Origin: Acidimicrobiia bacterium
GTDB taxonomy: Bacteria; Actinomycetota; Acidimicrobiia; Acidimicrobiales; AC-14
Length of the DNA stretch: 32,452 bases
Direction of reading: 5' to 3'
Assembly: GCA_023264995.1 (NCBI GenBank)
Contig: JAHFUR010000014.1
Span: 1 to 32,452, forward strand
Of the stretch, positions 5,457 through 23,821 are shown piece after piece; position 1 is the first letter of the stretch; each line of letters starts with the position of its first letter. The notes beneath the pieces are model-generated. The model was given only the letters and a program-made list of their open reading frames with translations, was not told the origin of the DNA and made no database searches. Made by a program: the position numbers and the translations under genes.

Positions 5457-6771
5457 CGGTCGGTGGCGGTGAGGCCGCCCGCCGACGGAGCAGAAGCGGC
5501 GGAGGCGGCGGCGCCAACGGGGCCTCGTAGTCGTAGAGGAGCGCGGTGTCAGCCTCCGGCTCCGGCTCCGGCTCGGGCGCCGGCGCCGGCGCCGGGCGGG
5601 CTCGGGCGGGGCGGGCGGTCGAGGCCGCCTTGCTCGCCTTCCGGGCCGCCGCGGCGCGAGCCGGGGCCGCCGGCTTCGAGGCCGCCTTCGGGACGGCCGC
5701 CTTCGGGACGGCCGCCTTCGGGATGGCCGCCTTCGGGACGGCCGCCTTCGGGGCCCGTACCTTCGGCGCGCCCAGGGCGTCGAGGCGGGCGCTGATCTCG
5801 GCCATCTGGCGGTCGGAGCGTTCGACGGCGGCCTCGACGGCGGCGGCGAGGGGTTGCAGCTGGCGGGTGACGCCGGCCTTGATCGACCGGGCCCGGGCCG
5901 CCTCGCGCTCCTCAGCGGCGTCGGCCAGGTCGCCCAGCTCGGCGAGCGCGGCGGACACCGGCCGGAGCTGGCGGCCGACCGACGCCTTCAGGGCCTCCAG
6001 GCGGCTGGCGCCCTCCTGGCGAGCGGCGTCGGTGTTCATCTCGGCGGTCATCTCGACCCGGCGGAGCAGCTCGCGCATGGCATCGGTGGTCGCCGCGCTC
6101 GACAGGTCGGCGGCCTCCACCGAGGCCCGGAGCTCGTCGAGGCCGGCGGCCACGACGTCGGCCAGGCCGTCAGACTGGTCGGCGAGCGCCTTGGCCGCCG
6201 CCTGGGCGGCCAGCTCGGGCAGCGACTCGGCCACCATCATCACCCGCAGCTCGGCGTCGCGCCCGTCGAGGAGCTCGGCCAGCATGGCCTGTTGGCGGGT
6301 GACGGCGCTGACCACGGCATGCAGCTCGTTGCGCAGCTCGTCGAAGGCGTCCTCGAACCATTGGAGGATCTCGGTGCGGGGCCCGGCGGCCGGCCCGGGG
6401 AGGGGTGGCGCCTGGCTGGGACGGGGCGGGGCGGGTGGTGCCTGGCGGGCGCCGTAGCCGCCTCCGTTGGCGCTCCGGCCGTTGGTACCGGTCCCGGCCG
6501 CCGCGCCGCCGTTGCTGGCCGCGCCGGCCGGCGCGGGTTGCGGTTGGGCCAGGTCCGGCCCGGCTCCCAAGGCCCGGGCCCGGGTCTCGATGGCGGGGGC
6601 CAACGTGAAGGTGACCGGGCGCGGGCCGCGCGCCCACACGTCGGGGCAGCCGTCGAACTGGCCCGGGCAGACCACGCCGCACTCCGGGCACGAACACGAC
6701 TGCTCGCCGGCCCGCATGGGGTGCCCGCAGCCCTCACGGATCTGGGAGCCGAACTCGTGGCAGCGACCCAT
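5452..6771 (-). CDS. Cys-cluster / coiled-coil protein with Lys-Ala-Pro repeats
   Basis: 439 residues from ATG 6771, chosen because TAACAT lies 7 bases upstream and the longer open frame only overlaps the CAP gene in another frame. The first 42 residues hold seven cysteines (C4, C15, C26, C28, C31, C35, C42) and two histidines, including CSCPECGVVC, which resembles a zinc ribbon. A low-complexity Pro/Gly/Ala segment follows. Residues about 155-330 are strongly helical and alanine/leucine rich, with coiled-coil character. The C-terminal part contains five PKAA-type pentapeptide repeats and then acidic and proline-rich tails. No signal peptide is present, so the protein is probably cytoplasmic. 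No family is recognised. A structural or scaffolding role is possible but not shown; its organisation resembles the coiled-coil protein at 28141-29739. Confidence 0.7.
   Translation of the reverse strand: MGRCHEFGSQIREGCGHPMRAGEQSCSCPECGVVCPGQFDGCPDVWARGPRPVTFTLAPAIETRARALGAGPDLAQPQPAPAGAASNGGAAAGTGTNGRSANGGGYGARQAPPAPPRPSQAPPLPGPAAGPRTEILQWFEDAFDELRNELHAVVSAVTRQQAMLAELLDGRDAELRVMMVAESLPELAAQAAAKALADQSDGLADVVAAGLDELRASVEAADLSSAATTDAMRELLRRVEMTAEMNTDAARQEGASRLEALKASVGRQLRPVSAALAELGDLADAAEEREAARARSIKAGVTRQLQPLAAAVEAAVERSDRQMAEISARLDALGAPKVRAPKAAVPKAAIPKAAVPKAAVPKAASKPAAPARAAAARKASKAASTARPARARPAPAPAPEPEPEPEADTALLYDYEAPLAPPPPPLLLRRRAASPPPTG
5686..5760 (-). repeat. 15-bp tandem repeat encoding Pro-Lys-Ala-Ala-Val units
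   Basis: On the plus strand the unit CTTCGGGACGGCCGC (one copy reads GGGATGG) recurs about five times. In the coiled-coil gene it encodes PKAAV/PKAAI/PKAAS pentapeptides. Lys/Ala/Pro repeats of this kind often form flexible basic tails in actinobacterial proteins; boundaries are approximate. Confidence 0.75.
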
Positions 6772-6833: not shown

Positions 6834-8300
6834 CTACGAGGCGGCCGGGACGATCTGAGTGGAGTAGGTCGGGGTGCCCCAACCCTGCGCGTTGTGGGCG
6901 AACACCGCCAGCGTGTACGTGTGGCCGTTGGTCAGGCCGGGCACGCTGCCGCCGGTGCAGGTGGCACAGCCCACGCCCCACAGCCCGGTGTAGCCCGTCG
7001 AGTCGAACGCGAAGATCCCGTAGTAGTCGATGGCCGTGCCCGAGCTCGATGCCGCGGTCCAGGTCACGCTGGCCGACCCGTTGCCCCGGGTGACGGCCAC
7101 GTTGCCCGGGGGGCCGGGCGTACCGGCCACGACCCAGTCCGACAGGGTCGCCGCGCCCCAGCCGTTCGGGTTGTGGGCGTAGACCACGGCGAAGTACCGG
7201 TGGCCGTTGACCAGGCCCGGCACGGTCGCCGTCGAACAGGTGGCGCAGACCCATGCGTACTTGTTGGTGTAGCCGTTGTCGTCGAACGCGAACACGGCGT
7301 AGCCGTCGATGGCGGTGCCCGGGTTGGTCGGCCCCCGCCAGGAGGTGGTCATCGCCGCGTTGGCGGGCAGGGCCCGGACTTCGGTGGGCGCCCCCGGGGT
7401 GGCGGCAACGGTGACCCAGCCGGAGAACGTTGCCGGTCCCCATCCGGCCCCGTTGTGGCCGTGGGCGCTCACGTAGTACGTCGCCCCGTTGGTCAGGCCG
7501 GTCACGGTGGCGCTCCGGCAGGTCGCGCAGGCGGTCACGTAGCGGCTGGTGTACCCGCTGGCGTCCCAGACGAAGACGCCGTAGCTGTCGACTGCGGCGC
7601 CCGACGCCGCCGGCGTCCACGTGGCGTTGATCGAGGCGTCGGCGCCGGCGGCGGTGACCGACGCGGGGGCGGCGGGAAGCGTCGGGGTCGGGGTGGTGGA
7701 GGCCATCCGGCCGAAGACCTGGGTGGCCACGAACACGTTCGTCAACGGGCTCCCACCACCCGTCCAGCTCTGGCCGGCGGCCGTGTGCCAGGAGCCGATG
7801 CCGATGTGGGTGAAGTCGGGGTTCAGGATGTTGGCCCGGTGGCCGGAGCTGGCCATCAGGTCGTTGGTCAGGCGCTGGGCGGCCAACAGGGGGTCGGTGG
7901 TGCCGCTCATCCAGGCGATGTTCTCGCCCCAGCCCGATGTCGACACGCCGGCGGCACCGAACATGCTGGCCACGTTCTGGGTGCCGCAGCCGGCGATGGT
8001 GTGGCTGAAGTAGTTGCGGGCGCCCATGTCGGCGGACCGCCCCTGCACCGCGAAGCCGCACCCGTCATAGCGGCCGTCCTGGGCGATGCTCCCGAGGCTG
8101 GCCGACCATTGCAGCGGGGCGACGTTGGCGGCCGCCCGTTGCTGGTTGACGAGCTCGAGCATCTTGGCCGCGAACCCGCCGTCGTCAGTGGCGTAGGCCG
8201 GGGCGGAGCCGGCGATCGCCGCCACCGGGCCGACGAGGAGGGCCACGGCCACCGCCGCTCGAAGGATGGTGCAAACGCGTCTTGCGCTCGTTGTCAACAT
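6834..8300 (-). CDS. secreted CAP/SCP-domain protein with three Fn3 domains
   Basis: 488 residues with a signal peptide at about 1-37 (hydrophobic run AAVAVALLVG, cleavage likely near AYA). Residues 43-196 form a CAP (CRISP/antigen 5/PR-1) domain: YFSHTIAGC with H100, GENIAW with E126, and SSGHRANILNP with H154, the residues that line the CAP cavity. C81 and C105 are also conserved in the neighbouring CAP protein and probably form a disulfide. Three fibronectin type III-like domains follow (about 210-300, 301-393, 394-488), each with a CATC motif (258-261, 352-355, 445-448) and a HN..GWG element. Bacterial CAP proteins are secreted and have varied, mostly unproven roles. It is divergent from a homologous CAP gene, with 142 bases between the starts. 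Confidence 0.88.
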   Translation of the reverse strand: MLTTSARRVCTILRAAVAVALLVGPVAAIAGSAPAYATDDGGFAAKMLELVNQQRAAANVAPLQWSASLGSIAQDGRYDGCGFAVQGRSADMGARNYFSHTIAGCGTQNVASMFGAAGVSTSGWGENIAWMSGTTDPLLAAQRLTNDLMASSGHRANILNPDFTHIGIGSWHTAAGQSWTGGGSPLTNVFVATQVFGRMASTTPTPTLPAAPASVTAAGADASINATWTPAASGAAVDSYGVFVWDASGYTSRYVTACATCRSATVTGLTNGATYYVSAHGHNGAGWGPATFSGWVTVAATPGAPTEVRALPANAAMTTSWRGPTNPGTAIDGYAVFAFDDNGYTNKYAWVCATCSTATVPGLVNGHRYFAVVYAHNPNGWGAATLSDWVVAGTPGPPGNVAVTRGNGSASVTWTAASSSGTAIDYYGIFAFDSTGYTGLWGVGCATCTGGSVPGLTNGHTYTLAVFAHNAQGWGTPTYSTQIVPAAS

Positions 8301-8442
8301 GTCGAGGCCAGCGTCGGCACACGGGACCGAAAGCTTGAGCCTGACGACGTGACCGGCGATGTCCTAACGTTTAGTGGTGGATTCACCACGCAGAGTGACA
8401 ATATGCCTTAATTCCCGGTCAGGAGTTGCCGAAGGGCGGGTG
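8301..8442. promoter_or_regulatory. shared intergenic region of two divergent CAP genes
   Basis: The region holds a perfect inverted repeat GTGGTG-GATT-CACCAC at 8374-8389 and, just before it, a near-palindrome CTAACGTTTAG at 8364-8374. It is locally AT-richer than its surroundings. A minus-strand TATTGT (8398-8403) could be a -10 box for the 8300 gene, giving a ~90-base leader that would contain the hairpin. The elements are visible; a regulatory role is inference. Confidence 0.4.
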
Positions 8443-10209
8443 ATGCCCTCCACCGACTCCCTCGCCTCCCCCGCCACCGAGGCCGCCCGGGGCCGTCGCC
8501 CTGGGTCGTGGCGGGCCGGCATCGCCGCCGTGGGCATCGTCGTGGCCATCCTCGCTCCCGCCGGCCGGGCATCGGCCGACGTGACGTTCAACCAGCACCT
8601 GCTCGAGCTGGTCAACCGTGACCGGGCGGCCGCCGGCCTTCAGCCCGTGGTCGCCGACCCGACGCTGGGGGCCACAGCCGAGGACGCCCCGTACAACGGT
8701 TGCGGCTTCACCGTCAACGGCCGGGCCAAGGACATGGGCCAGCGGAACTACTTCAGCCACACGATCCTGGGGTGCACGACGCAGAGCGTGTTCAACATCC
8801 TGGCCGCCACCGGACTGGTCTTCAGCGGCGCCGGCGAGAACATCGCCTGGATGAGCGGCACCACCGACCCGCTGGTGGCGGCCGAGAACCTCCACAGCCA
8901 GATGATGAACAGCAGCGGGCACCGAGCCAACGTCCTTAACCCCAGCTGGACAAGGGTCGGGATCGGCTCCTGGCGCACCGCGGCCGGCCAGTCCTGGTCG
9001 GGTGGGGGCTTCGCCCTGACCAACGTGTTCATCGGCGTCGAGCTCTTCGCCGGCGGCGCGGTCGACAGCTCACCCCCGGGGCGTTACACACCTCTGACGC
9101 CGGCCCGCATCCTCGACACCCGCGACGGCACCGGCGGCCTTCCGGCCGGGGCCGTGCCGGCCGGGGGGACGATCGACGTGCAGGTGGCCGGCCGGGGCGG
9201 CATCCCCACCGCCGACGTCGCCGCCGTGGCCCTGACGGTGACGATCACGCAGCCTTCGGCCGCCGGCTACCTGTCCGTCTTCCCGAGCGGGACGGCCCGG
9301 CCCCTCGCGTCGAACATGAACTTCGTGCCCGCCCAGACCGTCTCGAACCTGGTGGTGGTCAAGGTCGGGCCCAACGGCAAGATCAGCATGTACAACCCCA
9401 ACGGCACCACCCACGTCGTCGCCGATGTTGCCGGCTGGTACTCCTCGGCGGGCACGGGCAACGCCGGGCGCTTCGACCCGGTGGCGCCGTCCCGCATCCT
9501 CGACACCCGGACCGGCTCCGGCGGGGTGCGGCTCGGCCCCGACGGGAGCCTGGACCTTCAGGTCACCGGGCGGGGCGGCGTCCCGGCGTCGGGGGCCGAG
9601 GCCGCGGTGCTGAACGTCACGGCGACGGGGACGACCGCCGCCAGCTTCCTCACCGTCTACCCGACGGGGGAGGCCCGGCCGTGGGCGTCGAACCTGACCT
9701 TCGCCGCCGGCGAGACCGTGGCCAGCCGGACCATCGTGAAGCTCGGCGCCGGCGGCAAGGTGACCGTGTACAACATGGCCGGCGGGGCCGACGTGATCGT
9801 CGACGTGGCCGGCTGGTTCACCGACTCGACCGCCGGCGGCTCGCTCGGGGTGCTCAGCCCCCTGGACCCGGCCCGGATCCTCGACACCCGCGACGGCACG
9901 GGCGGCGTGGCCGGTGCGCTCTCCCCGTTCGCGGTGACCGACGTCCAGGTCACCGGGCGGGGTGGGGTGCCGGCATCGGGCGTCCGCGCCGTCATCCTGA
10001 ACGCCACGGTCACCCAACCGGCCGCCGCCGGCTACCTCACCGTCTACCCCTCCGGCACGGCGACACCGCTGGCGTCCGACGTCAACTTCGCCGCCGGCGA
10101 GACCCGTTCGAACCTCGTGGTGGTGCAGGTCGGGGCCAACGGGAAGGTGGGCATCGTGGCGGCGACGGGCACGCACGTCGTGTTCGACGTGGCCGGCTGG
10201 ATCTCCTAG
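8443..10209 (+). CDS. secreted CAP-domain protein with C-terminal ILDTRDG triplet
   Basis: 588 residues from ATG 8443 (GTG 8440 is adjacent; an earlier in-frame GTG at 8374 lies in the palindrome and is unlikely). A long basic n-region precedes a hydrophobic core (AGIAAVGIVVAILAP) and a cleavage site near GRASA. The CAP domain spans about 47-203, with YFSHT (H106), GENIAW (E132) and SSGHRANVLNP (H160); C87 and C111 match the disulfide pair of the divergent CAP protein. Three repeats of ~128 residues follow, starting near 213, 341 and 469, each with a PxRILDTRxGxGG motif, a GRGGVP loop and an ending such as HVVADVAGWY. The third repeat ends at the C-terminus (FDVAGWIS). The repeats look beta-rich; I do not recognise a named domain. 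CAP identity is firm, function unknown. Confidence 0.88.
   Translation: MPSTDSLASPATEAARGRRPGSWRAGIAAVGIVVAILAPAGRASADVTFNQHLLELVNRDRAAAGLQPVVADPTLGATAEDAPYNGCGFTVNGRAKDMGQRNYFSHTILGCTTQSVFNILAATGLVFSGAGENIAWMSGTTDPLVAAENLHSQMMNSSGHRANVLNPSWTRVGIGSWRTAAGQSWSGGGFALTNVFIGVELFAGGAVDSSPPGRYTPLTPARILDTRDGTGGLPAGAVPAGGTIDVQVAGRGGIPTADVAAVALTVTITQPSAAGYLSVFPSGTARPLASNMNFVPAQTVSNLVVVKVGPNGKISMYNPNGTTHVVADVAGWYSSAGTGNAGRFDPVAPSRILDTRTGSGGVRLGPDGSLDLQVTGRGGVPASGAEAAVLNVTATGTTAASFLTVYPTGEARPWASNLTFAAGETVASRTIVKLGAGGKVTVYNMAGGADVIVDVAGWFTDSTAGGSLGVLSPLDPARILDTRDGTGGVAGALSPFAVTDVQVTGRGGVPASGVRAVILNATVTQPAAAGYLTVYPSGTATPLASDVNFAAGETRSNLVVVQVGANGKVGIVAATGTHVVFDVAGWIS
9079..10206 (+). repeat. three ~128-residue ILDTRDG protein repeats (copy A)
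   Basis: Repeat starts lie near 9079, 9463 and 9847. Unit features in order: PxRILDTRxGxGG, VQVxGRGGxP, a strand like AVVLNVTVTQP, YPSG or FPSG, N.NF..G.T, VVKVG..GK, and a closing DVAGW. The second unit carries GVRLGP and the third carries ASDVNFAAGETR, as in the other two proteins. Confidence 0.9.
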
Positions 10210-10226
10210 GTACCCCGGGGGACCAC

Positions 10227-10232
10227 TAGCCT
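10227..10232 (+). promoter_or_regulatory. -10-like TAGCCT upstream of the 10278 gene
   Basis: TAGCCT would start transcription near 10239, leaving a ~40-base leader that contains the GAGAGGAG ribosome-binding site at 10264-10271. No clear -35 box is seen. Confidence 0.35.
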
Positions 10233-10277
10233 GGTCGAAAGACGGGCTGGGGCGGTGGAAGGCGAGAGGAGCGGCGA

Positions 10278-12365
10278 GTGGGGGGCCGAGGCGGTATGGG
10301 AGTCCTAACGGGGCCGGCGCGGTGGTGGCGCTCTCTCGTGCTCGTGCCACTGCTGCTGGCCACCGTCCTGGCCTCGGCCGCCTCGGCCCAGGCGGTGAGC
10401 TTCTCGCTCAGCATCGGGATCCAGGGGCCTTCCTCTGTGACTGTCGGGGCCTCGAACGTGGTCGGTGGGCTCAACATCGTGAACACGTCGGTCGGCCTCG
10501 GGTCGGTGACGCTGACCTCCATCACCTACCACCCATCGTGCGCCGACTTCACCACGGCCTGCACCTCGCCTGAGACCGGTGTCTTCACGCTCGGCTCGAC
10601 GGCGTTCGGCGGCGCGGGCACGGCCTGCGCCGGCCGCACCTTCACCGTGACTTCCGACGTCTCGGGCCGCTACACCTTCGCCACCTCGCCCGCCATCGTG
10701 CTCGCGCCCCCAGGCGCCGGTGACACGTGCACGATCAGCTTCACCTTCAGCTCGCTGCGGGTCCCCACCACCGACTCGACGGTGAGCCCCGGGATCCAGA
10801 CCACCCGGTCGGCGATCCTCCTGGGCACGGCCACCGCCACCGGCGGCGGCACGGTGAACGGCACGTCGCGCAGCATCGCGTCGATCACGGTCCTGCCCGT
10901 CCAGACCACCGTCGTCACCCAGGTCTCCGCGGCGTCGGTGGCGCCGGGGGTGCCCTTCACCGACACGGCCACGGTGGTCGGCGCGGCCGGCGTGGCCGTC
11001 ACCGGGCTGGTCACGTTCAAGCTGTACGGGCCCGACGACGGCGCGTGCGCCACGGCTGCCGCGTTCACGTCCACCGTGCTCGTGGCGGGGAACGGGATGG
11101 CGACCTCCGCACCCTTCGCCACGTCGCAGCCGGGCGTGTACCGGTTCATCGCCACCTATGGCGGCGACGTCAACAACAGCCCGGTGGCCGGCGTCTGCAA
11201 CGCCGCCAACGAGGTCGTGACCGTGCTGCCGCCCGGCCGGTACGTGCCCCTGGCGCCGGCGCGGATCCTCGACACGCGTGACGGCACTGGCGGCATCGTC
11301 GGGCCGCTCGGCGCCGGCGCCGCGGTCAACGCCCAGGTGGCCGGCCGGGGCGGAGTACCGGCCTCGGGGGTCAGCGCCGTGGTGATGAACGTCACCGTGA
11401 CCCAGCCGACCGCCGCCGGCTTCCTGACCCTCTATCCCGCCGGCGCGGCATTGCCGGCCACCTCGAACCTGGGGTTCACGCCCGGCCAGACCGTGCCGAA
11501 CCTGGTCGTCGTCAAGCTCGGGACCAACGGGATGGTGGGCATCTACAACTCGGCCGGCGCCACCCAGGTGGTCCTCGACGTCGCCGGCTGGTACTCCGAC
11601 AGCGCCGGCCCGGGCGACGGGCGGTATCGGCCGGTGGTGCCGTCCCGCATCCTCGACACGCGTGACGGCACCGGCGGGGGCGTGCGCCTCGGCCCCGGTT
11701 CGAGCATCGACGTGCAGGTGGCCGGCTTCGGGGGTGTGCCGGCCACCGGGGCCAGCGCCGCCGTCCTGAACATCGCGGCGACGCAGACGACTGCCCCCAG
11801 CTTCGTCACGGTCTTCCCGACGGGTTCGGCCCGGCCTGGGGTCTCCAACCTGAACTTCACGGCCGGCCAGACGGTGTCGAACCGGGCCATGGTCAAGCTG
11901 GGGACCGGCGGGAAGGTGACCATCTACAACCTGGCCGGCGGCACCGACATCATCGTCGACGTGGGCGGCTGGTACACCGACGGCTCGGTGCCGGCCACCG
12001 GTGGCACGTTCGCCCCGGTCCCCCCGGCCCGGATCCTCGACACCCGCGACGGCACGGGCGGTGTTGCCGGCATCCGCCCTGCAGCCACGGCGGTCGACGT
12101 CGTGGTGACCGGCGTCGGGGGCGTGCCCGCCACGGGCGTGAGCGCCGTGGTCCTCAACGTCACGGTCACTCAGCCGGCGGGGCCGGGCTTCGTCACCGTC
12201 TTCCCGGCGGGCGGGAGCCTCCCGCTGGCCTCCGACGTCACCTTTGCCGCCGGCGAGACCCGCCCCAACCTGGCGGTCGTGGCCGTGGGTGCGGGCGGCA
12301 AGGTCACCCTGTACGTCTCGGCGCAGGCTCATGTCATCTTCGACGTCGCCGGCGTGTACTTCTGA
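10278..12365 (+). CDS. secreted Ig-like protein with C-terminal ILDTRDG triplet
   Basis: 695 residues from GTG 10278, which has GAGAGGAG six bases upstream. A signal peptide is visible (RSLVLVPLLLATVLASAASAQA, cleavage near residue 38). Residues about 40-205 form a beta-rich, Thr/Ser/Gly-rich region with several cysteines that I cannot assign. Residues about 210-318 look like a bacterial Ig-like domain (FTDTATVVGAAG, VTGLVTFKLYGP, YRFIATYGGDVNNSP). Three ILDTRDG repeats start near residues 320, 447 and 575 and end at the C-terminus (FDVAGVYF). There is no sortase motif or C-terminal membrane segment. The triplet is shared with the flanking genes while the N-terminal part differs, which suggests the triplet is a common carrier or attachment module. 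Confidence 0.85.
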   Translation: MGGRGGMGVLTGPARWWRSLVLVPLLLATVLASAASAQAVSFSLSIGIQGPSSVTVGASNVVGGLNIVNTSVGLGSVTLTSITYHPSCADFTTACTSPETGVFTLGSTAFGGAGTACAGRTFTVTSDVSGRYTFATSPAIVLAPPGAGDTCTISFTFSSLRVPTTDSTVSPGIQTTRSAILLGTATATGGGTVNGTSRSIASITVLPVQTTVVTQVSAASVAPGVPFTDTATVVGAAGVAVTGLVTFKLYGPDDGACATAAAFTSTVLVAGNGMATSAPFATSQPGVYRFIATYGGDVNNSPVAGVCNAANEVVTVLPPGRYVPLAPARILDTRDGTGGIVGPLGAGAAVNAQVAGRGGVPASGVSAVVMNVTVTQPTAAGFLTLYPAGAALPATSNLGFTPGQTVPNLVVVKLGTNGMVGIYNSAGATQVVLDVAGWYSDSAGPGDGRYRPVVPSRILDTRDGTGGGVRLGPGSSIDVQVAGFGGVPATGASAAVLNIAATQTTAPSFVTVFPTGSARPGVSNLNFTAGQTVSNRAMVKLGTGGKVTIYNLAGGTDIIVDVGGWYTDGSVPATGGTFAPVPPARILDTRDGTGGVAGIRPAATAVDVVVTGVGGVPATGVSAVVLNVTVTQPAGPGFVTVFPAGGSLPLASDVTFAAGETRPNLAVVAVGAGGKVTLYVSAQAHVIFDVAGVYF
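11235..12362 (+). repeat. three ~128-residue ILDTRDG protein repeats (copy B)
   Basis: Repeat starts lie near 11235, 11616 and 12003. Unit 1 has SNLGFTPGQTVPNLVVVKLG, unit 2 has GVRLGPG and VSNLNFTAGQTVSNRAMVKLG features, and unit 3 has ASDVTFAAGETRPNLAVVAVG. Each matches the unit in the same position of the 12452 protein better than its own neighbours. Confidence 0.9.
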
Positions 12366-12451
12366 TCTGATCAGGAGCCGGCAGGCTGAAGCGGTTGTCC
12401 CTGTCCCGGCGCGGTGGGAAACTGGGTACACCCACGGCGAGGAGTGATGGC

Positions 12452-14299
12452 ATGGTGACCCGGATCCGCTCACGTTCGGTCGCGTCGGTGGCGGCCACGG
12501 CCATGGTGCTGGCTGCGCTCGCCGTGGTGGTCGTCGCCGGCCCGGCCGAGGCTGCGGTCCTCGACGTGCGGGGGAGCGCCTTCGGGGCCCAGGCCAACGT
12601 CACCATTTTCGGTGGCCCGGTGATGAACGACGGCCCCGCACCCCACGCCTTCCTGCCGCCCGGGGGTTCGGCCAGCGCGGTGACCGCCAGCGCCACCACC
12701 CGCCTGGTCCAGTTCGGCCCGGCCATCCTCTTCAGCTCCGGGCAGGTCAATGTGAGCACCCAGGGGACGGCGGCGGGCGGGACGATCACCAGCTCCACGG
12801 GCATCACCGCGATCAACACGTCCCTCCAGGAGAAGTTCACCGCGTCCGGCGCGACGAGCTCGTGCACCGCCTCCGAGGTGAGCCATTCCGGCTCGGCCAC
12901 GGTCACGAGCGGCACGGTGATGATCTCCGAAGGCACCCCGGCCGAGGGTGACGAGGTGTTCGCGCCCGTGCCCGCCAACCCGGCGCCGAACACCGTGGTC
13001 CACGGGGTCATCGAGGGCGTCGGCGACAGCTTCGACTACATCTTCAACGAGCAGGTCGTGGACAGCGATGGCTCGTTCGCCGTGTCCGCCGCCCACCTCA
13101 GGCTGCTGGGGCCGACCGCAGTCGGCGACCTGTACATCGGCCGCTCCATCTGCGGCATCAACCCGGGCGGTCGCTACGTCCCCCTCACGCCGGCCCGGAT
13201 CCTCGACACCCGCGATGGCACGGGCGGCGTCGTCGGTGCGGTCGGCCCCGGCGCCGCGGTCAACGTGCAGGTGGCCGGGCGCGGGGGCGTGCCGGCGACG
13301 GGTGTGACCGCCGTCGTGATGAACGTCACCGTGACCCAGCCCACCGCGCCGGGGTTCCTCACCCTGTTCCCGGCCGGCAACGCGCTCCCCGTGGCGTCGA
13401 ACCTGGGGTTCACCCCCGGCCAGACCGTGCCCAACCTGGTCGTCGTCAAGCTCGGCACCAGCGGCATGGTCGGGGTGTACAACTCGGCGGGCTCGACCCA
13501 CGTCCTCTTCGACGTGGCCGGGTGGTACGCGGACAGCGCCGGCCCGGGTGACGGGCGCTACCGCCCGCTGGTACCGGTCCGGATCCTCGATACGCGCGAC
13601 GGCACGGGCGGCGGCGTCCGGCTGGGCGCGGGGGCCAGCCTCGACCTGCAGGTGACCGGCCGCGGCGGCGTGCCGGTGTCGGGCGTGAGCGCCGCCGTGC
13701 TCAATATCGTCGCCACCGGGACCACCGCCACCAGCTTCGTCACCGCCTGGCCGACGGGCGCGGCCCAGCCCGGAGTTTCCAACCTCAACTTCAACGCCGG
13801 CCAGACGGTCACCAACCGGGCCGTCGTGAAGCTGGGCACGGGCGGGAAGGTCACCATTTTCAACCTGGCCGGTGGCGCCGACATCGTCGTCGACGTCGGT
13901 GGCTGGTACACCGACGGCTCCACTCCCGCCACCCTCGGCACGTTCGCCCCCCTCGTGCCGGCCCGCATCCTCGACACCCGTGACGGCACGGGCGGCATCA
14001 CCGGGGCCAGGCCGGCGGCCACCGCGGTCGACGTCCAGGTCACCGGCCGGGGAGGGGTCCCCGCGTCGGGGGTGAGCGCCGTGGTCCTGAACGTCACCGT
14101 GACCCAGCCGGCCGCCCCCGGGTTTGTCACTGTCTTCCCGTCCGGGGGTGGCCTCCCACTGGCCTCAGACCTCACCTTTGCCGCGGGCGAGACGCGGCCC
14201 AACCTGGCCGTCGTGGCCGTCGGTGCCGGCGGCAAGGTCACCCTGTACGTCTCCGCCCAGACCCACGTCATCTTCGACGTCGCCGGCTGGACCTCCTGA
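12452..14299 (+). CDS. secreted protein with C-terminal ILDTRDG triplet
   Basis: 615 residues from ATG 12452, chosen because GAGGAG (12439-12444) lies seven bases upstream and a signal peptide begins directly (RSVASVAATAMVLAALAVVVV, cleavage near AEA). Residues about 35-238 are a beta-rich domain ending in LRLLGPTAVGDLYIGRSICG. This ending resembles the secreted actinobacterial choice-of-anchor P type, but I hold that loosely. Three ILDTRDG repeats start near residues 240, 368 and 496, and the last ends at the C-terminus (FDVAGWTS). The triplet is very close to that of the preceding gene, indicating duplication of the whole module. It converges on the GT2 gene with 12 bases between the stops. 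Confidence 0.85.
   Translation: MVTRIRSRSVASVAATAMVLAALAVVVVAGPAEAAVLDVRGSAFGAQANVTIFGGPVMNDGPAPHAFLPPGGSASAVTASATTRLVQFGPAILFSSGQVNVSTQGTAAGGTITSSTGITAINTSLQEKFTASGATSSCTASEVSHSGSATVTSGTVMISEGTPAEGDEVFAPVPANPAPNTVVHGVIEGVGDSFDYIFNEQVVDSDGSFAVSAAHLRLLGPTAVGDLYIGRSICGINPGGRYVPLTPARILDTRDGTGGVVGAVGPGAAVNVQVAGRGGVPATGVTAVVMNVTVTQPTAPGFLTLFPAGNALPVASNLGFTPGQTVPNLVVVKLGTSGMVGVYNSAGSTHVLFDVAGWYADSAGPGDGRYRPLVPVRILDTRDGTGGGVRLGAGASLDLQVTGRGGVPVSGVSAAVLNIVATGTTATSFVTAWPTGAAQPGVSNLNFNAGQTVTNRAVVKLGTGGKVTIFNLAGGADIVVDVGGWYTDGSTPATLGTFAPLVPARILDTRDGTGGITGARPAATAVDVQVTGRGGVPASGVSAVVLNVTVTQPAAPGFVTVFPSGGGLPLASDLTFAAGETRPNLAVVAVGAGGKVTLYVSAQTHVIFDVAGWTS
13169..14296 (+). repeat. three ~128-residue ILDTRDG protein repeats (copy C)
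   Basis: Repeat starts lie near 13169, 13553 and 13938. The same position-specific signatures occur as in copies A and B: TVTQPTAPGFLTLFP in unit 1, GVRLGAG and NRAVVKLG in unit 2, ASDLTFAAGETRPN in unit 3. Confidence 0.9.
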
Positions 14300-14311: not shown

Positions 14312-15133
14312 CTACCGTGCCGCCAGGGCCACCCGGAGCCGGCCCGTGGCGCGGATGAGGCGGAGCTCGACGGGGCGGGCGCCGACCTTGCGGGCGTAGG
14401 TCAACCGGCTCTCGTGGTACCGGCGTTTCTGGTCGCGGGCCGAACGCCAGCTCTGGCCCCCGCCGTGCACGACCTGGGCGGCAGGCAGCCGGCCGACGGC
14501 TTGGCCGCGGGCCATCACCCGCCGGCAGAGGTCGAGATCCTCGAAGTACATCTCGAAGGCCTCGTCGAACCCCCCGAGCGCCAGGAAGTCAGCGGTACGG
14601 AGGACCATGGCCACGCCCGACACCCACTCGGGGCGCAGGGCGTCGGCCCGGCGGCCGCCGTGCGCCGTCCGCCAGCCGGGGACCACGAGCTCCCAGCGGC
14701 GGGGTAGCCGGCCGAAGGCCTGAGGTTGGGGCGTGACGCCGTCGGCCAGCACCACCTCCGGCGCGAGGATGCCGAGGGAGCCGTCGGCGGCCAACGCGGT
14801 GACGAGCCGGCCGACCGACCCCGGCCGGACGGTGGCGTCGCTGTTCAGGATGAAGAGGAACGGCGCGGCGCAGGCGGCGACGCCGAGGTTCACGCCGGCG
14901 CCGAAGCCCCCGTTCCTGGGCGACCCGACGACCCGCGCTCGGGGGTCGTCGCCGAGCGCCTCGCGCAAGGTGGCGGCGCTCCCGTCGCCTGAGGCGTTGT
15001 CGACCACTACCACCTCGCCCACGTCATCCTCGGCCAGGACCGAGCGGGCGGCGGCCGTGGTCAGCTCGGCGGTGCGGTAGTTGACGATGACCACGGCCGT
15101 GCTCCTCGGCCCCGGTCGCTCGCCGTCGGTCAC
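14312..15133 (-). CDS. family 2 glycosyltransferase, WbbL-like
   Basis: 273 residues from GTG 15133, which overlaps the stop of the upstream methyltransferase (GTGA). A GT-A nucleotide-sugar fold is indicated by VVIVNYRTAEL at the N-terminus, VVVDNASGDGS, NGGFGAGVNLG and ILNSDATV, the last holding the DxD-like metal-binding position. Later come WVSGVAMVLRTADF and DEAFEMYFEDLDLCRR, typical of the rhamnosyltransferase-like WbbL/RfbF branch of GT2. The donor is therefore possibly dTDP-rhamnose, which is inference. It probably adds a sugar to a lipid-linked oligosaccharide at the inner membrane face. It is the last gene of a four-gene minus-strand unit with three methyltransferases. Confidence 0.9.
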   Translation of the reverse strand: MTDGERPGPRSTAVVIVNYRTAELTTAAARSVLAEDDVGEVVVVDNASGDGSAATLREALGDDPRARVVGSPRNGGFGAGVNLGVAACAAPFLFILNSDATVRPGSVGRLVTALAADGSLGILAPEVVLADGVTPQPQAFGRLPRRWELVVPGWRTAHGGRRADALRPEWVSGVAMVLRTADFLALGGFDEAFEMYFEDLDLCRRVMARGQAVGRLPAAQVVHGGGQSWRSARDQKRRYHESRLTYARKVGARPVELRLIRATGRLRVALAAR

Positions 15134-15981
15134 CCAGCCGTCCGGTGCCCGACGACGGTGAACATCCGGCGGGCCCGGCCCTGGTAGAGCTGGGTGTGGT
15201 AGCTGACCGTGGTCCGCTCGAACCCGAGGACGCCGACGAACGCCACGATCAGGTCGGGGGAGAGGCGCCACCAGCCGTCGGGGTTCTGGCCCGTCCTCCA
15301 GTCGGGGCGGAACCGCATGGCCGGTTGGCGGAGCCGGCGGGGCAGCAGGTCCTTCAACCGCACGAGGGCCGGCGGCAGGCTCAACCGGTCGAGCATCTCG
15401 GTGACGACGACGGTCTCTCGGGCCAGGCGCAGGGGCGATGCCAGGGCGGCGAAGGGGTCACGGGTGTGGAGGAGGATGGCCCCGAAGATGGCAACGTCCA
15501 CGGGGCCGACGGCCTCGGGCACCGAGTAGACGTCGCCGTAGACCACCTGGGCCGACGAGCCGTAGGCCCGGTGGTTGAACCAGTAGGCGTTGTTCAGCCG
15601 GGTGATGCCGTCCTTGAACCGGTCCTCGGTGGTCAGCCAGTGGCCCGGGTCGCCGGTCCGGGCCGTGCTCAGCGCCGATCGGGCATAGGGAACGACGTCC
15701 CACCGGAAGTCGGGGGAGAGGTCGTAGCTGACGACGTCGGCGCCCTGGCGCTCGATCTCGAAGGTGATGAAGCCGTCGGCGGTGCCGAGCTCGAGGACCC
15801 GCTTGCCGGCGAACGGGACCCCGCCCAGGTACGTGCCCAGGGTGCCCCGCAGGTCCCATTGGCCCTCGACGTGGCCGTGCCCAGGGATGTCCATCGTGTG
15901 GTAGAAGTCGCACGCCGCCGGGTCGTCGACGAGGCGCGGCGGCGCCGCCACCGCGGCAACGCCGCGCTCGACGTCGGTCAC
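15130..15981 (-). CDS. class I SAM-dependent methyltransferase
   Basis: 283 residues from GTG 15981, which overlaps the TGA of the preceding methyltransferase gene by the GTGA arrangement. The N-terminal ~50 residues contain FYHTMDIPGHG. The SAM-binding motif I is KRVLELGTADGFITFEIE, followed by the acidic strand end VVSYDLSP. Later motifs include VDVAIFGAILLHTRDP and a basic C-terminal segment. The substrate cannot be read from the sequence. Its place in a translationally coupled unit with two other methyltransferases and a GT2 enzyme suggests it methylates a sugar of the cell-surface glycan. Confidence 0.85.
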   Translation of the reverse strand: MTDVERGVAAVAAPPRLVDDPAACDFYHTMDIPGHGHVEGQWDLRGTLGTYLGGVPFAGKRVLELGTADGFITFEIERQGADVVSYDLSPDFRWDVVPYARSALSTARTGDPGHWLTTEDRFKDGITRLNNAYWFNHRAYGSSAQVVYGDVYSVPEAVGPVDVAIFGAILLHTRDPFAALASPLRLARETVVVTEMLDRLSLPPALVRLKDLLPRRLRQPAMRFRPDWRTGQNPDGWWRLSPDLIVAFVGVLGFERTTVSYHTQLYQGRARRMFTVVGHRTAG

Positions 15982-16661
15982 GAACGGTGGGCCGGCGTGG
16001 CGCGGACGGCGAAGCCGGTGTAGGCGAAGTCCCGCAGGAGGAACCGCCAGGTGGCCTCCCCGGGGAACGTCGACCCGCCGACTGCGTTGATGCCCTTGAT
16101 CATTTCGACGGTGTAGCCGCTTTCGCTGAACAGGTCGCGGATGGACGCGCCGGTGAAGAACCGCAGGTGGGTGCGGTCCATGATCCCGATGTCGGTGTAG
16201 GTCCACCGGCCGCGCAGCACCAGGTCGACGACGACCCGGATGTTGCGGACGTTGGGGATCGAGGCCACGACCACCCCGCCGGGGGCGAGGAGCGGCCGGG
16301 TGGCACGCAGCGTGGCCCAGGGGTCGGCGACGTGTTCGAGCACGTCGTTGCACACGATGCAGTCGAACGTGCGCTCTCGGCCGGCGAGCGCCTCAGGGAA
16401 CAGGCCGGTGACCATCGTGTCGTAGTAGGGCGCCGCTTCGGCGGCGACGGCGGGGTCGGCCTCGACCGCCCACAGCTCGCGCTTGCGGGCGGGGTCGGCC
16501 TGGCGGAGGGCCTGACCGAACCCGCCGGGGCCGCAGCCGACATCGAGGACCGTGCGGGCCGTGCCCGGCACGAAGGCCAGCATCTCCGGGCGGGCCGAGA
16601 ACGGGTAGCGGGACACCGTCGCCGGCGAGGCAGCGGGGCGGGCCTTGACCACGAGCGCCAT
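15978..16661 (-). CDS. class I SAM-dependent methyltransferase (Methyltransf_23-like)
   Basis: 227 residues from ATG 16661, one base after the FkbM gene's stop. A longer start upstream would overlap that gene. Motifs are VLDVGCGPGGFGQAL (motif I), WAVEADP (motif II), CIVCNDVLEHVADPW (motif IV, with the LEH typical of this group) and LLAPGGVVVASIPN (motif VI). Proteins of this kind are common in O-antigen and exopolysaccharide clusters, where they methylate sugars or terminate chains. The acceptor here is unknown. The order FkbM, this gene, the 15130-15981 gene and GT2, all nearly touching, indicates one operon read on the minus strand. Confidence 0.9.
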   Translation of the reverse strand: MALVVKARPAASPATVSRYPFSARPEMLAFVPGTARTVLDVGCGPGGFGQALRQADPARKRELWAVEADPAVAAEAAPYYDTMVTGLFPEALAGRERTFDCIVCNDVLEHVADPWATLRATRPLLAPGGVVVASIPNVRNIRVVVDLVLRGRWTYTDIGIMDRTHLRFFTGASIRDLFSESGYTVEMIKGINAVGGSTFPGEATWRFLLRDFAYTGFAVRATPAHRS

Positions 16662-16662
16662 C

Positions 16663-17586
16663 CTAGAGGTCGGCCCGCGGGCCACCGGCTGCCCCTCCGG
16701 GCGACGGTCCGGGGGCGAGGAGGAGGTCGACCGTGCGCCCCTCGAGGGCCGCGGGCCGGCGCTCGAGGGAGGTGGTCGGCATATAGCCCATCGACGCGAA
16801 GGTGGCCAGGAGGGCGGAGGAGGAGGTGCCCGCCTGGCGCAGCAGGACGTCGTTGAACTCGCACAGGACGAGGGGGCGGAGCGTGGCCAGTGTCTGGCCG
16901 GCGCCCTTCAGCACCTCGGGCTCGAACCCCTCGGCGTCGATCTTCAGGAGCCGGAGCCGGCCGGGATGGGGGTGCTCGGCCAGGAGGTCGTCGAGGCGGG
17001 TGGTGGGTACGTCGATCTCGCCGGCGGTCTCCCAGGTGGCAACGAACGACCCGAACGCGCCCCCTCCCCGGACCGGGATCCGCAGGCGTGCCGTGCCCGT
17101 CTCCGACGAGAGGGCGAGGGGGACCACGGTGAGCTGGCGCAGGTCGTTCACGGACCGGAGGCGTTCGAGGCGCTCGACGTTCCTGGGCAGCGGCTCCACG
17201 GCCCAGACCGAACCGGTCGGGCCGACGAGCGCGCAGAGCCGGCTGGTGACCAACCCGACGTTGGCGCCGACGTCGATCACCCAGTCGCCGGGGCCGGCGA
17301 CCCGGTCGAGGCCGCGCAGGAGCTCGGGGCTGTGGGCGCCCAGGAACCCGGCCCGCTCCAGGTAGTCCGACACGTCGGCCTCGACCAGGTGCCCCCAGGG
17401 GTCCCGGTACGAGTAGACGCCAGTGGTCAGCAGGCGCGACGCCACCCGGCGGGTCACGGCGCTGGTGACCCATCCGGCCCGGCCCCGGCCCTGGGCACGC
17501 CGAGAGGCGCCGGCCGCGGCCTCGACGAAGCGGTTCGGTGCCCCCCCGGTCCGCTCGGCGGGATCCGGGTGTCTGTCCGGGCCCAC
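16663..17586 (-). CDS. FkbM family methyltransferase
   Basis: 307 residues from GTG 17586, supported by TAGTGT six bases upstream. The first ~60 residues are basic and poorly ordered. The FkbM fold is shown by DWVIDVGANVGLVTSRL (SAM motif I), VWAVEPLPRNVERL, and the hallmark LLKIDAEGFEPEVLKGA. The family O-methylates sugars and other metabolites and often sits in glycan clusters. It is the first gene of the minus-strand unit running to 14312 and is divergent from the flippase gene, with 68 bases between starts. Confidence 0.9.
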   Translation of the reverse strand: MGPDRHPDPAERTGGAPNRFVEAAAGASRRAQGRGRAGWVTSAVTRRVASRLLTTGVYSYRDPWGHLVEADVSDYLERAGFLGAHSPELLRGLDRVAGPGDWVIDVGANVGLVTSRLCALVGPTGSVWAVEPLPRNVERLERLRSVNDLRQLTVVPLALSSETGTARLRIPVRGGGAFGSFVATWETAGEIDVPTTRLDDLLAEHPHPGRLRLLKIDAEGFEPEVLKGAGQTLATLRPLVLCEFNDVLLRQAGTSSSALLATFASMGYMPTTSLERRPAALEGRTVDLLLAPGPSPGGAAGGPRADL

Positions 17587-17592
17587 GCCGGC

Positions 17593-17598
17593 ACACTA
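17593..17598 (-). promoter_or_regulatory. -10-like TAGTGT, leaderless start of the FkbM gene
   Basis: On the minus strand TAGTGT is followed by GCCGGC (6 bases) and the GTG at 17586. No ribosome-binding site can fit. The same hexamer precedes the coiled-coil gene at 28141. Confidence 0.55.
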
Positions 17599-17642
17599 CC
17601 GGCGCCCGTCGACGGTCCCGGGGAGCGTCGGCCGGGCCGTGC

Positions 17643-17648
17643 TAGCTT
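17643..17648 (+). promoter_or_regulatory. -10-like TAGCTT, leaderless start of the flippase gene
   Basis: TAGCTT is followed by six bases (GCCGCG) and the GTG at 17655. It is back to back with the TAGTGT of the FkbM gene, so both transcripts of this divergent pair appear to lack leaders. Confidence 0.55.
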
Positions 17649-17654
17649 GCCGCG

Positions 17655-18974
17655 GTGGTCGCTGACGGCGACTGCTCCGGCTTGGGTGGGAACGACGGTC
17701 AGCCGGTCGAGCAGATGGACGAGCCGGGGGCCGTTGGTCCCGTGGGCGCGGCGCGGTCAGGGCTACTGGCCCGCTCGGCGTGGTCGCTCATCGGCCAAGG
17801 CCTGTCGAGCAGCTCGAACTTCGTGCTCTCCGTCCTCGTGCTCTCCCGGGCCTCGCGGGTGGAGTTCGCCACGCTGTCGGTGGTCCTCACGACGTACACG
17901 TTCCTGGTGCTGTTGCTGCGGTCGGTGGTGGGCCTGCCGGTCACACTGCTGTACTCGCACGGCCTGGGCCGGGGGAACGAGCGCGACTTCCGCGCCGCGG
18001 CCGGTGTCACGCTTGTCGTGTCCGTCGTGGCCGGCGCCGCGCTGCTTGTCGCCGCCGCCGTCTCGCCGCGCGACCGCGGGCAGTTGGTCGTCCTGGGCGC
18101 CGCCCTCCCGCTACTCCTCCTCCAGGACGCGGCCCGGTACGCGTGGTTCGCCATGGGCCGGCCGCGGATGGCGGCCGAGGCCGACGGCCTCTGGGTGCTC
18201 CTGCAGGTCGTCGGGTCGGCGCTCGTGCTCACCCTCGCCGGCACCGGGGCGCCGGCGACGCTCCTCCTCGGCGCCTGGGCCGGCGCCGGCGCCGTCTCCG
18301 GGTGCTTCCTCGTCCTCCGGACGCGCCTCTGGCCGGCGCCGGCGGCCGGGTACCGCTGGCTGGTCGCCCACCGGGCCTTGTGCGGCAAGCTGGTCACCGA
18401 CTACCTCGTCGGCGCCGGCAGCCACTACGCGGTCTTCTTCGGCCTGGCCGTGGTCGCTGGCTCCGACGAGCTCGGCCGGCTGAAGGCGGCGCAGACGTTC
18501 CTCGGACCGCTCATCGTCCTCCTCCTCGGAGGGGCGGTCTTCGGCGTGCCCGAGAGCGTGCGGGCCGGGGCCGACCCGGCCCGGCTCTGGCGGCTGACCC
18601 GCCGGCTCGGCGGGGCCCTGGTCGGCGCGTCGGTGGCGTGCGGGGCGGTCGTGTACGCGGTCCTGCCGGTGATCGGGCCGGCGACGTTCCCCGACGCGTG
18701 GGCCGGCGCCCGGCCGGCCATCCCGCTGCTCACGGTCTTCGCCGCGGCCGTCGGGGCGTCCACCGGGGCGACGAGCGGGCTACGGGCCTTGGACCAGAAC
18801 GCCTGGCTGCTGCGCGCCCGCATGCTGACCGGCCCGGTGCTCGTGCTGGCGAGCATCCCGGCGTCGGCGTCCTTCGGCGTCAACGGCGCGCTGGCCGTGC
18901 TGTCGTCGGTCGAGTGGACCGTCGCCGTCCTCTCCTGGCGGCGACTTCGAGGCATGCTGGCGCAGCCGGCATAG
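17655..18974 (+). CDS. polysaccharide flippase-like integral membrane protein
   Basis: 439 residues from GTG 17655. After a ~35-residue cytoplasmic N-terminus the protein is a chain of hydrophobic segments, roughly a dozen, such as FVLSVLVLSRASRVEF, YTFLVLLLRSVVGLPVTLLY, VTLVVSVVAGAALLVAAAV and LIVLLLGGAVFGVP. Length and topology fit the MOP/Wzx-type lipid-linked oligosaccharide flippases, and the position inside a glycan cluster agrees. Sequence motifs in this superfamily are weak, so assignment rests on topology and context. Its likely job is to move undecaprenyl-diphosphate-linked units across the membrane. A shorter start at ATG 17715 is possible but lacks the promoter fit. Confidence 0.78.
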   Translation: MVADGDCSGLGGNDGQPVEQMDEPGAVGPVGAARSGLLARSAWSLIGQGLSSSSNFVLSVLVLSRASRVEFATLSVVLTTYTFLVLLLRSVVGLPVTLLYSHGLGRGNERDFRAAAGVTLVVSVVAGAALLVAAAVSPRDRGQLVVLGAALPLLLLQDAARYAWFAMGRPRMAAEADGLWVLLQVVGSALVLTLAGTGAPATLLLGAWAGAGAVSGCFLVLRTRLWPAPAAGYRWLVAHRALCGKLVTDYLVGAGSHYAVFFGLAVVAGSDELGRLKAAQTFLGPLIVLLLGGAVFGVPESVRAGADPARLWRLTRRLGGALVGASVACGAVVYAVLPVIGPATFPDAWAGARPAIPLLTVFAAAVGASTGATSGLRALDQNAWLLRARMLTGPVLVLASIPASASFGVNGALAVLSSVEWTVAVLSWRRLRGMLAQPA

Positions 18975-19002
18975 GTGGACGAGGGCGAGGAGGTACCCAG
19001 CA

Positions 19003-19377
19003 ATGGTGAGCGTGCGCTACATCGTTGAGGACATCGACGCGTCGGTCGAGTTCTACGAGCGCCTCGGTTTCGAGGTCCGGCTCCGTCCCGGGCCGGGTTT
19101 CGCCATGGTGCAACGTGATGAGCTTCGCCTCCTGCTCAACACGCCCGGTGGCGGGGGCGGTGCGGGCCAGGCGATGCCCGACGGCACCCGACCCGCGCCT
19201 GGGGGATGGAACCGCATCCAACTCGAGTTCGACGACCTCGATGCCACAGTCGAACGCCTGGCGCAGGCCGGTGTCAGCTTCCGCAGCGGGATCATCGCCG
19301 GCATGGGTGGCCGGCAGGTGCTTGCCGACGACCCGTCGGGGAACCCCGTCGAGCTGTTCCAGCCGGCCGGCCGCTGA
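19003..19377 (+). CDS. VOC (glyoxalase/bleomycin-resistance) family protein
   Basis: 124 residues, one VOC domain, from ATG 19003 with a strong GAGGAGGT site eight bases upstream. The fold is seen as two beta-alpha-beta-beta-beta halves: VRYIVEDIDASVEFYERLGFEVRL with LRLLLNTP, then WNRIQLEFDDLDATVERLAQAGV ending in VLADDPSGNPVELFQPA. The final Glu in the GNPVELFQ motif is the usual metal ligand, but the His expected near the N-terminus is replaced by Tyr in this copy (RYIVED). Metal use and reaction are therefore uncertain. It is 28 bases after the flippase gene on the same strand, and no role in glycan synthesis is evident. Confidence 0.88.
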   Translation: MVSVRYIVEDIDASVEFYERLGFEVRLRPGPGFAMVQRDELRLLLNTPGGGGGAGQAMPDGTRPAPGGWNRIQLEFDDLDATVERLAQAGVSFRSGIIAGMGGRQVLADDPSGNPVELFQPAGR

Positions 19378-19390
19378 GCGGAAAGCGTCC

Positions 19391-19418
19391 ACGGGCGGTG
19401 CCGCTCTGCGGCGGCCGT
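19391..19418. terminator. stem-loop between convergent VOC and ligase genes
   Basis: GCCGC-TCT-GCGGC (19400-19412) forms a GC hairpin, with outer ACGG/CCGT arms allowing an interrupted extension. It lies in the 68-base gap between two convergent genes, where a bidirectional terminator is expected. There is no T-run. Confidence 0.4.
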
Positions 19419-19445
19419 CCAGAAGAGGGCCGCGGCGGCGACCCC

Positions 19446-21867: not shown

Positions 21868-21877
21868 ATCGACAGGC

Positions 21878-23023: not shown

Positions 23024-23034
23024 CTAGCCCCGCA

Positions 23035-23769
23035 CTAGTCGGCGCCCAGCCCGGTGACGATGACGAGAGGTGTCCGGGCCAGGATCTTCGTGTCGACCCA
23101 CGGCCCGCAGGTGGCGAGGTAGCGGGTGTCGAGCTCGGCCCGCTCCGGGAACTGGACCGTGCTGCGCCCACTGACCTGCCACAGGCCGGTGAGGCCGGGG
23201 CGCAGCTCCAGGTAGGCCGGCTCGAAACCCTGGTAGTCGCGCTCCAGCTGCGTCCGCTCGACCGGGCGGGGGCCGACAAGGCTCATGTGGCCGACCAGCA
23301 CGTTGAAGAACTGGGGAAGCTCGTCGAGGCTGGTCCGGCGGAGGAACCTGCCAACCCGCGTGACGCGCGGGTCGATGCGGCTGGGGATCTTGTGGCTCCC
23401 GTCGAGGAACAGGCGCTGCAGCTGCTCGTTCGACTGGAGCTGCGCCTCGGCGTCGATGAACATGGTCCGGAACTTCAGGATGGAGAAGTCGGTCCCGTGG
23501 CGGCCCACCCGCCGCTGGCGGAAGAGCACCGGCCCGGGCGACGTGAGCTTGATGGCCAACGCGATGGCGGCGAGGACGGGCAGCGCCAGCAGGACCAGCA
23601 GCGACGAAACGACGACGTCGAGCAGGCGCTTCCCGCGCCAGCCGGTACGCGCCGCGGTTGCCGGGGCGGCGACCCCCACGGCCGGGTCAGCGCCGATGGG
23701 GGACGAAAGCCGAGCACCCGCCGGCACGGGGCCACCCACGGCCGTCAGGTTGTCACCCCCCGCCAGCAT
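23035..23769 (-). CDS. undecaprenyl-phosphate sugar phosphotransferase (initiating)
   Basis: 244 residues from ATG 23769. The open frame extends to 23904 but then overlaps the start of the divergent Wzc gene. A TATCTT box at 23822-23827 would start transcription near 23815, and GGGGGTGA lies just before this ATG, so I prefer the shorter form. Motifs of the monotopic bacterial sugar transferase family are complete: KRLLDVVVSSLLVLLALPVL (membrane hairpin), SPGPVLFRQRRVGRHG, FSILKFRTM, RRTSLDELPQFFNVL, MSLVGPRP and RPGLTGLWQVSGR. The enzyme transfers a sugar-1-phosphate onto undecaprenyl phosphate and so begins glycan synthesis. The short N-terminus fits the ExoY-like form. It is first in a four-gene minus-strand operon. 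Confidence 0.93.
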   Translation of the reverse strand: MLAGGDNLTAVGGPVPAGARLSSPIGADPAVGVAAPATAARTGWRGKRLLDVVVSSLLVLLALPVLAAIALAIKLTSPGPVLFRQRRVGRHGTDFSILKFRTMFIDAEAQLQSNEQLQRLFLDGSHKIPSRIDPRVTRVGRFLRRTSLDELPQFFNVLVGHMSLVGPRPVERTQLERDYQGFEPAYLELRPGLTGLWQVSGRSTVQFPERAELDTRYLATCGPWVDTKILARTPLVIVTGLGAD

Positions 23770-23821
23770 CCCGTACGTCACCCCCGCGATCAGTCGCCGT
23801 TCCCGCCAATCACTTCCTGTG

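Follow-up and report, generated by a model that had tools for sequence, protein, structure and literature searches.

A repeat carried three to a chain or singly on secreted proteins of Acidimicrobiia and relatives: a probable single-chain trimer and candidate surface module

The window analysed here is a stretch of 32,452 nucleotides (positions 1 to 32,452, forward strand, of contig JAHFUR010000014.1, assembly GCA_023264995.1) from an Acidimicrobiia bacterium. Three consecutive genes on its + strand encode proteins A, B and C, each with an N-terminal region of its own and each ending in three units of a repeat, termed here the triplet. A chain with this repeat carries three units or one, rarely two, and none was seen with four or more. 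Because of this rule, together with a link between single units and trimerising stalks, the triplet is very likely a single-chain trimer. The three units would form a closed, pseudo-threefold head of beta sandwiches, in effect a trimer with its three protomers fused in one chain, while in the single-unit form three chains would supply the three units, usually beside a trimerising stalk; either arrangement leaves a chain with three units or one. That the triplet retains proteins at the cell surface has about an even chance, judged by analogy, and the same holds for both properties taken together. An unnamed repeat would thereby be given a testable structural rule, namely three units per chain, or one plus a means to trimerise.

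Protein A (8440-10206, its start chosen inside an open reading frame (ORF) at 8374-10209), protein B (ORF at 10278-12362) and protein C (ORF at 12395-14296) each start, by reading, with a signal peptide. The units are located at 9079-9444 (A1), 9466-9822 (A2) and 9847-10206 (A3), at 11235-11597 (B1), 11619-11978 (B2) and 12003-12362 (B3), and at 13169-13531 (C1), 13553-13912 (C2) and 13937-14296 (C3), all on the + strand. They are 119-122 amino acids long and spaced 127-129 amino acids from start to start, in keeping with the initial annotation, which had described three repeats of about 128 residues at the end of each of three neighbouring proteins, from 9079 to 14296. The N-terminal domains were said to differ completely. 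Protein A does contain a CAP domain (PF00188, E 1.1e-8), but the Ig-like region proposed for B is a possibility by reading alone and found no profile support, as Pfam at E<=1 gave no match anywhere in B or C; the N-terminal region of C falls within no family.

Repeats at the same position resemble each other across proteins more closely than repeats within one protein do, as had been claimed. Mean identity is 71% between units at the same position (9 pairs), against 56% within one protein (9 pairs) and 56% for the remaining 18 pairs. Among the nine units the motif GVRLG is confined to A2, B2 and C2, ASD-x-x-FAAGETR to A3, B3 and C3, and LGFTPGQTVPN to B1 and C1, exactly the distribution first noted. 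The tree of the nine units that had been proposed was built, and it groups them by position and not by protein, with a unit 2 clade (support 100/100), a unit 3 clade (94/91) and a group of B1 with C1 (95/93); A1 is placed without support. Position labels clustered as tightly in only 1 of 200 shuffles. The identities and the tree together support the original suggestion that the triplet of A, B and C was already established when it was duplicated as a whole.

No named domain was known for the repeat when it was first described, and none was found. Pfam and NCBIfam at E<=1 place no family over the units of A, B and C, and PHROGs at E<=0.1 places none over the units of protein C, the one protein searched there. 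Among PDB sequences no chain gave a convincing match, the unit profile finding one unrelated chain at E 1. A match to an already characterised domain is therefore absent by sequence, although the fold does have a precedent, described below. In full-text literature searches, judged by titles and abstract openings and with subscription journals and preprints outside their coverage, none of the papers listed is about this module. A phage origin was considered and set aside, because tblastn of 50,697 phage records gave no match, whether with a triplet (E<=1e-5) or with one unit (E<=1), and no relative was confirmed among 216 viral-contig hits to a sequence pattern. For phage proteins, resemblance to the unit is confined to predicted folds.

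The nine units were used as the query for a scan of named contigs, and the best 80 of 150 confirmed stretches gave 77 loci, mostly from Acidimicrobiia and other Actinomycetota, together with metagenome-assembled genomes (MAGs) labelled Chloroflexi or Dormibacterota and a few loci labelled Proteobacteria. Two loci under different labels, L100 (a contig labelled Stenotrophomonas maltophilia, 875 amino acids) and L090 (Microbacterium saccharophilum, 874 amino acids), have triplets at nearly the same places and with nearly the same scores, and the L100 contig may be mislabelled or contaminated. Three units are present in 93 of the 104 ORFs that are clear of the ends of the stored DNA, two in 4, one in 6 and a fragment in 1; four or more are found in none of the 104. 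Of the eleven ORFs without three units, four (two each at L063 and L099) appear to be triplets broken by a frameshift, and those of L067 and L068 appear to be fragments.

Since a scan of this kind is biased to close relatives, whole genomes were counted. The genome to which the window belongs (3.8 Mb, 81 contigs) has ten proteins with 29 located units (a separate count gave 30), nine proteins having three and one having two that are 98% identical. Contig C37 of this genome also contains a 43-residue match with stop codons. In genome G015, a single contig of 4.78 Mb, 150 of the 184 candidates were scored and gave 48 proteins with a total of 121 units, 36 of these proteins having three, 11 having one and 1 having two; in the last of these the gap fits a middle unit and a weak match is present, so that it was counted as three (37 in total). 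Genome G075, also one contig, has six proteins with three units and three with one. In G142 five proteins have three units and a sixth has two, and in G260 all three proteins have three. For G170, again one contig, 150 of 254 candidates were scored and all 150 matched, and the count covers proteins with at least one unit scoring within that list. The 150 matches make up the 69 groups listed, initially 37 of three, seven of two and 25 of one. After the 69 groups listed were read, 49 have three units and 20 have one, since all seven apparent twos and five of the apparent ones prove to be three (L187 by way of a weak third unit of 17 bits). The 37 initial triplets show no weak fourth unit; once duplicates had been dropped, 35 of them were represented by uncut ORFs and the other two by cut copies. 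Across the six genomes, with G170 represented by the 69 groups listed, three units are found in 109 of 145 proteins, one in 34, two in 2 and four or more in none. When G170 is set aside, the other five genomes have 76 proteins, among which a zero-truncated Poisson distribution of the same mean expects 22 with two units and 18 with four or more.

A prediction was written beforehand for the last ten G170 ORFs, namely three units, or one with a collagen or tail-fibre trimeriser, and nine of the ten have three. Plasmids follow the same pattern: 17 records match, and the module proteins counted there (one per record, 12 of 17 records) have three units in 12 of 12 cases. Two-unit proteins were entertained as a regular class and rejected, most being frameshift pieces, ends of contigs or regions, or effects of the end of a list, with four intact cases remaining (L021, L052, L173/L259 and L121). 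Another route to three is suggested by L174 (G260:C1:5938500-5943500), an 819-residue ORF in which a two-domain subunit, made of a domain of about 75 residues and one unit, occurs three times, the copies sharing 41-43% identity. Alignment scores between the small domains are 73-94, where a shuffled pair gives 12 +/- 9, and it looks as though the whole subunit has been fused three times.

Single-unit proteins would be expected to find partners if the triplet is a single-chain trimer. Stalk marks, defined as eight or more consecutive Gly-X-Y triplets of residues or the motif HDD[RLYE], were compared between 157 triplets and 37 single-unit proteins (11 from G015, 3 from G075, 20 from G170 and 3 from named loci). 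The latter derive from 42 single-unit rows. Six of these, being fragments or pieces at an edge, were left out (L067, L099, L217, L102, L068 and L189), and one L160 protein, merged earlier because its unit was identical, was added; L230 stands outside the 37. A Gly-X-Y run or the HDD motif is present in 23 of the 37 singles (12 and 11, respectively) versus 5 of the 157 triplets (p 1e-15). Because paralogues of one genome are not independent, the comparison was also made within genomes, giving 4/11 singles versus 1/36 triplets in G015 (p 0.008) and 17/20 versus 1/37 in G170 (p 1e-10). The marked triplets are L200, with a Gly-X-Y run in a protein of 3530 residues, L007, with HDD inside a protease-like part, and L054-L056. 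Adding crude coiled-coil and GVxG-repeat tests brings the totals to 28/37 singles versus 14/157 triplets; one of the nine singles outside these tests shows a short Gly-X-Y run by reading and the other eight have no mark of any kind.

Six single-unit proteins were scanned with Pfam; Collagen scored above its cut-off in five and narrowly missed it in the remaining one. When nine singles with initially cut ORFs were read to the end, none gained a unit. The HDD motif (as in HDHDDRYYTKTE) is reminiscent of trimeric phage tail fibres, and in PHROGs it found one marginal tail-fibre row (E 0.048). In single-unit proteins the unit usually adjoins a stalk of a trimerising kind, and these proteins would themselves trimerise.

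The structure of triplet C (13160-14296) was predicted with AlphaFold2 from an alignment of 92 triplets. The model has a mean predicted local distance difference test score (pLDDT) of 96.9 and a predicted template modelling score (pTM) of 0.94, and it is one rigid, compact, all-beta body of 24 strands, eight per unit, with no helix of four or more residues. Such a pTM implies a confident mutual arrangement of the three units. Unit C2 modelled alone (13544-13918) has a pLDDT of 96.7. Two-domain proteins among the structural matches align from about residue 9 to 379, which, from the ranges alone, suggests that units 1 and 3 are neighbours. The predicted triplet would close on itself with threefold packing. 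Pseudo-threefold packing, which the initial annotation had wished to see tested by structure prediction, agrees with the model, the copy-number rule and the stalks, the symmetry itself being a matter to which we return.

For the single unit, the best match in both PDB searches is the tip of the Bd2133 fibre of Bdellovibrio bacteriovorus (Foldseek E 5.4e-4, template modelling score (TM) 0.64). Z scores are 9.9 (8ond) and 9.6 (8ok3), with a root-mean-square deviation of 2.7 over 107 residues, and the next entry scores 7.5, so that the fold of one predicted unit appears common to both. The Bd2133 tip is a crystallographic homotrimer (PMC10769870), with one domain per chain on a trimeric beta-helix, whereas here there are mostly three per chain on unrelated proteins. 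No PDB chain, the tip included, gives the unit a convincing match in sequence, and the long trimeric beta-helix fibre of the MAT fibre protein is absent from A, B and C (no beta-helix match in Pfam).

Matches spanning the whole triplet are of middling strength. They include PNGase F at Z 7.2, the single-chain trimer APRIL-BAFF-BAFF and a trimeric entry for the C1q domain of Cbln1, each at 6.5, and a C1q head made as one chain at 6.4. The C1q/TNF trimers (PDB 4zch, 5hkj and 5kca, the first two being single-chain constructs by their titles) would resemble the predicted triplet in their side-by-side beta sandwiches and, with respect to the single units, in having collagen next to them. They differ in that A, B and C have no C1q or TNF match in Pfam at E<=1. 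Foldseek also matched the whole triplet to structures such as 4ind, an archaeal virus turret, but with a TM of about 0.18, and these matches were set aside. A single-chain trimer of this sort would be the natural counterpart of those made by engineers.

The proteins to which the triplet is joined are diverse. Among the 93 uncut triplet ORFs, 58 have at most 8 residues between the end of the triplet and the C terminus, 27 have up to 50, and in eight the triplet is more internal. A profile search for other N-terminal partners, proposed at the outset, found 61 Pfam families in the N-terminal regions of 77 of these 93 proteins, including fn3, M23, S8, CAP, GH18, Amidase_2, PQQ and C39. On two plasmids the triplet instead opens RHS proteins (L240, 5776-10275; L244, 5725-10314). 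The distribution is patchy, with 20 carriers in a sample of 296 genomes from the phylum and another count of 20 among 60 closer relatives, yet some carriers have dozens of module proteins. In the window itself, surface-polysaccharide genes, context that is possibly related, extend over 14315-25442 on both strands, with Pfam matches to GT2 (14315-15271, -), a methyltransferase (15981-16685, -), Wzy_C (19449-21023, -), GT4 (20800-22086, -) and Wzz/GNVR (23853-25442, +). A common tail, diverse cargo, a patchy spread with dozens per carrier and neighbouring polysaccharide genes are what one would expect of a module that anchors proteins to the envelope. Placed at the C or N terminus of secreted proteins that are otherwise unrelated (CAP, proteases, amidases, GH18, PQQ, RHS), the triplet would most likely hold its cargo at the cell surface by binding to an envelope glycan, performing with an all-beta fold the task of the helical SLH and CWB2 domains.

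These two anchors offer the closest parallels in organisation. In Clostridioides difficile three CWB2 repeats are needed and their order matters (PMC4973711); the core is helical, with one helix contributed per repeat, and the ligand is the anionic polymer PSII (PMC8881574). The SLH trimers have a three-helix core with approximate threefold symmetry and bind a pyruvylated wall polymer (PMC6081394). CWB2 shares with the triplet its three tandem repeats, the pseudo-threefold arrangement proposed for the triplet and its occurrence on many surface proteins of one genome, and SLH its three repeats per chain serving as an anchor on diverse surface proteins. However, A, B and C contain neither a CWB2 nor an SLH profile (Pfam E<=1), and the model is all beta in place of a helical core or a parallel three-helix bundle. 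Because all S-layer anchoring domains determined to date are described as mainly alpha-helical (PMC8881574), an all-beta anchor would be new. The triplet represents a family not described before within a familiar class of modules, with a function that we infer. A fuller history, which we offer tentatively and hold a little less probable than its opposite, is that a homotrimeric fibre-tip domain was fused three times into a monomeric module that then became a general surface address, and hence a third, all-beta, three-repeat wall anchor unrelated to SLH and CWB2; single units on collagen or fibre-like stalks would be the ancestral three-chain form and L174 an independent fusion. One genome in a single contig (G015) has 48 proteins with the module and another (G170) no fewer than 69, and RHS proteins of plasmids have it as well. 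If the proposal is true, some genomes display about 50 or more different proteins via the triplet, and its ligand would explain the placement of a large share of the surface proteins of poorly known bacteria.

The same single-chain trimer could instead face outward as an adhesin or lectin for other cells, surfaces or insoluble food, an idea we regard as unlikely, if the most serious of the alternatives. The fold that resembles it most belongs to the tip of a fibre with which Bdellovibrio meets its prey, single units do sit on collagen or fibre-like stalks, and weaker single-unit matches include BclA and the BC2L-C lectin (TM<0.5). Yet the module is on many enzymes and stalkless proteins, often more than 40 per genome, and at the N termini of RHS proteins, which is more like a shared address than a set of many adhesins.

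It might also be that the units are independent beads and that three is merely the number inherited from one ancestral triplet. Many triplets have been inherited whole: of 460 units from the collected loci, 337 find their best counterpart outside their own protein in a unit of equal position, where chance would give about one third and orthologues are included, and the nearest relative is within the same protein for 91 of the 460. The own-genome paralogues behave differently. By reading, their N-terminal parts comprise two more CAP domains, an amidase, a metalloprotease-like part (with fn3 by Pfam) and a propeller of PQQ-like type, while a further protein consists almost entirely of a signal peptide and the triplet. 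In a tree of the 29 units, position labels cluster no better than chance, 116 of 200 shuffles reaching a value as low, and grouping by protein beats 200 of 200 shuffles. Grouping by position everywhere is thereby ruled out for these distant paralogues, true as it is for A, B and C and common overall, and by their sequences the number three is retained even where the positional identity of the units is lost. Units at least 90% identical occur in 7 of 146 triplets, where unequal exchange should alter the number. In L163 (G015:C1:2519622-2520746) the three units look identical by reading, a recent homogenisation with the number still three. With L174 reaching three by fusion of a different subunit, a pTM that indicates a fixed mutual arrangement, and not one of the 145 proteins counted across the six genomes reaching four, the bead explanation is improbable. 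No better placed is the idea that the units are carbohydrate-binding modules repeated for avidity to a polymeric substrate of the attached enzyme, for although CBM35 and CBM36 chains match the single unit (Z 6.3-7.2) and several partners are hydrolases, those matches are well below the Bd2133 tip, avidity alone would permit two, four or five units, and some partners have no polymer-degrading part.

Several observations weigh against a single-chain trimer that retains proteins at the surface. The threefold symmetry is a deduction, and the structural matches of the triplet, all with Z<8, may mean only a common arrangement. Fourteen of the 37 singles have neither stalk mark, and eight of these have no stalk by any of the crude tests. 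The tenth ORF of the written prediction, L230, is a single unit without a collagen or HDD mark, so that the second half of the prediction failed. Intact two-unit proteins exist, with units identical at 98% (L021), 88% (L052), 95% (L173) and 70% (L121); the near-identity of the units in L021, L052 and L173 makes a lost or collapsed copy possible there. Fused units of the own genome are unsorted by position, and part of the constancy may be descent. With respect to anchoring, the module is found in Rudaea and a Proteobacteria MAG, which have outer membranes and to which a Gram-positive wall polymer is ill-suited, and the link between triplet and polysaccharide genes rests on one window.

L230 (G170:C1:410000-417000) is a protein of 985 residues in which the unit is followed by many GDMYID..LYGPK..GAW repeats, possibly a fibrous stalk. 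In the window, the divergent neighbour of A (6837-8300, -) is a CAP protein with three fn3 domains at its end in place of the triplet. Beside that gene, at 6409-6502 (+), ARAGORN calls a tRNA-Ala (ggc) within dense coding sequence, a suspected false positive. The polysaccharide region is flanked by DUF4012 proteins, one on each side (23-2089, + and 25498-27360, +).

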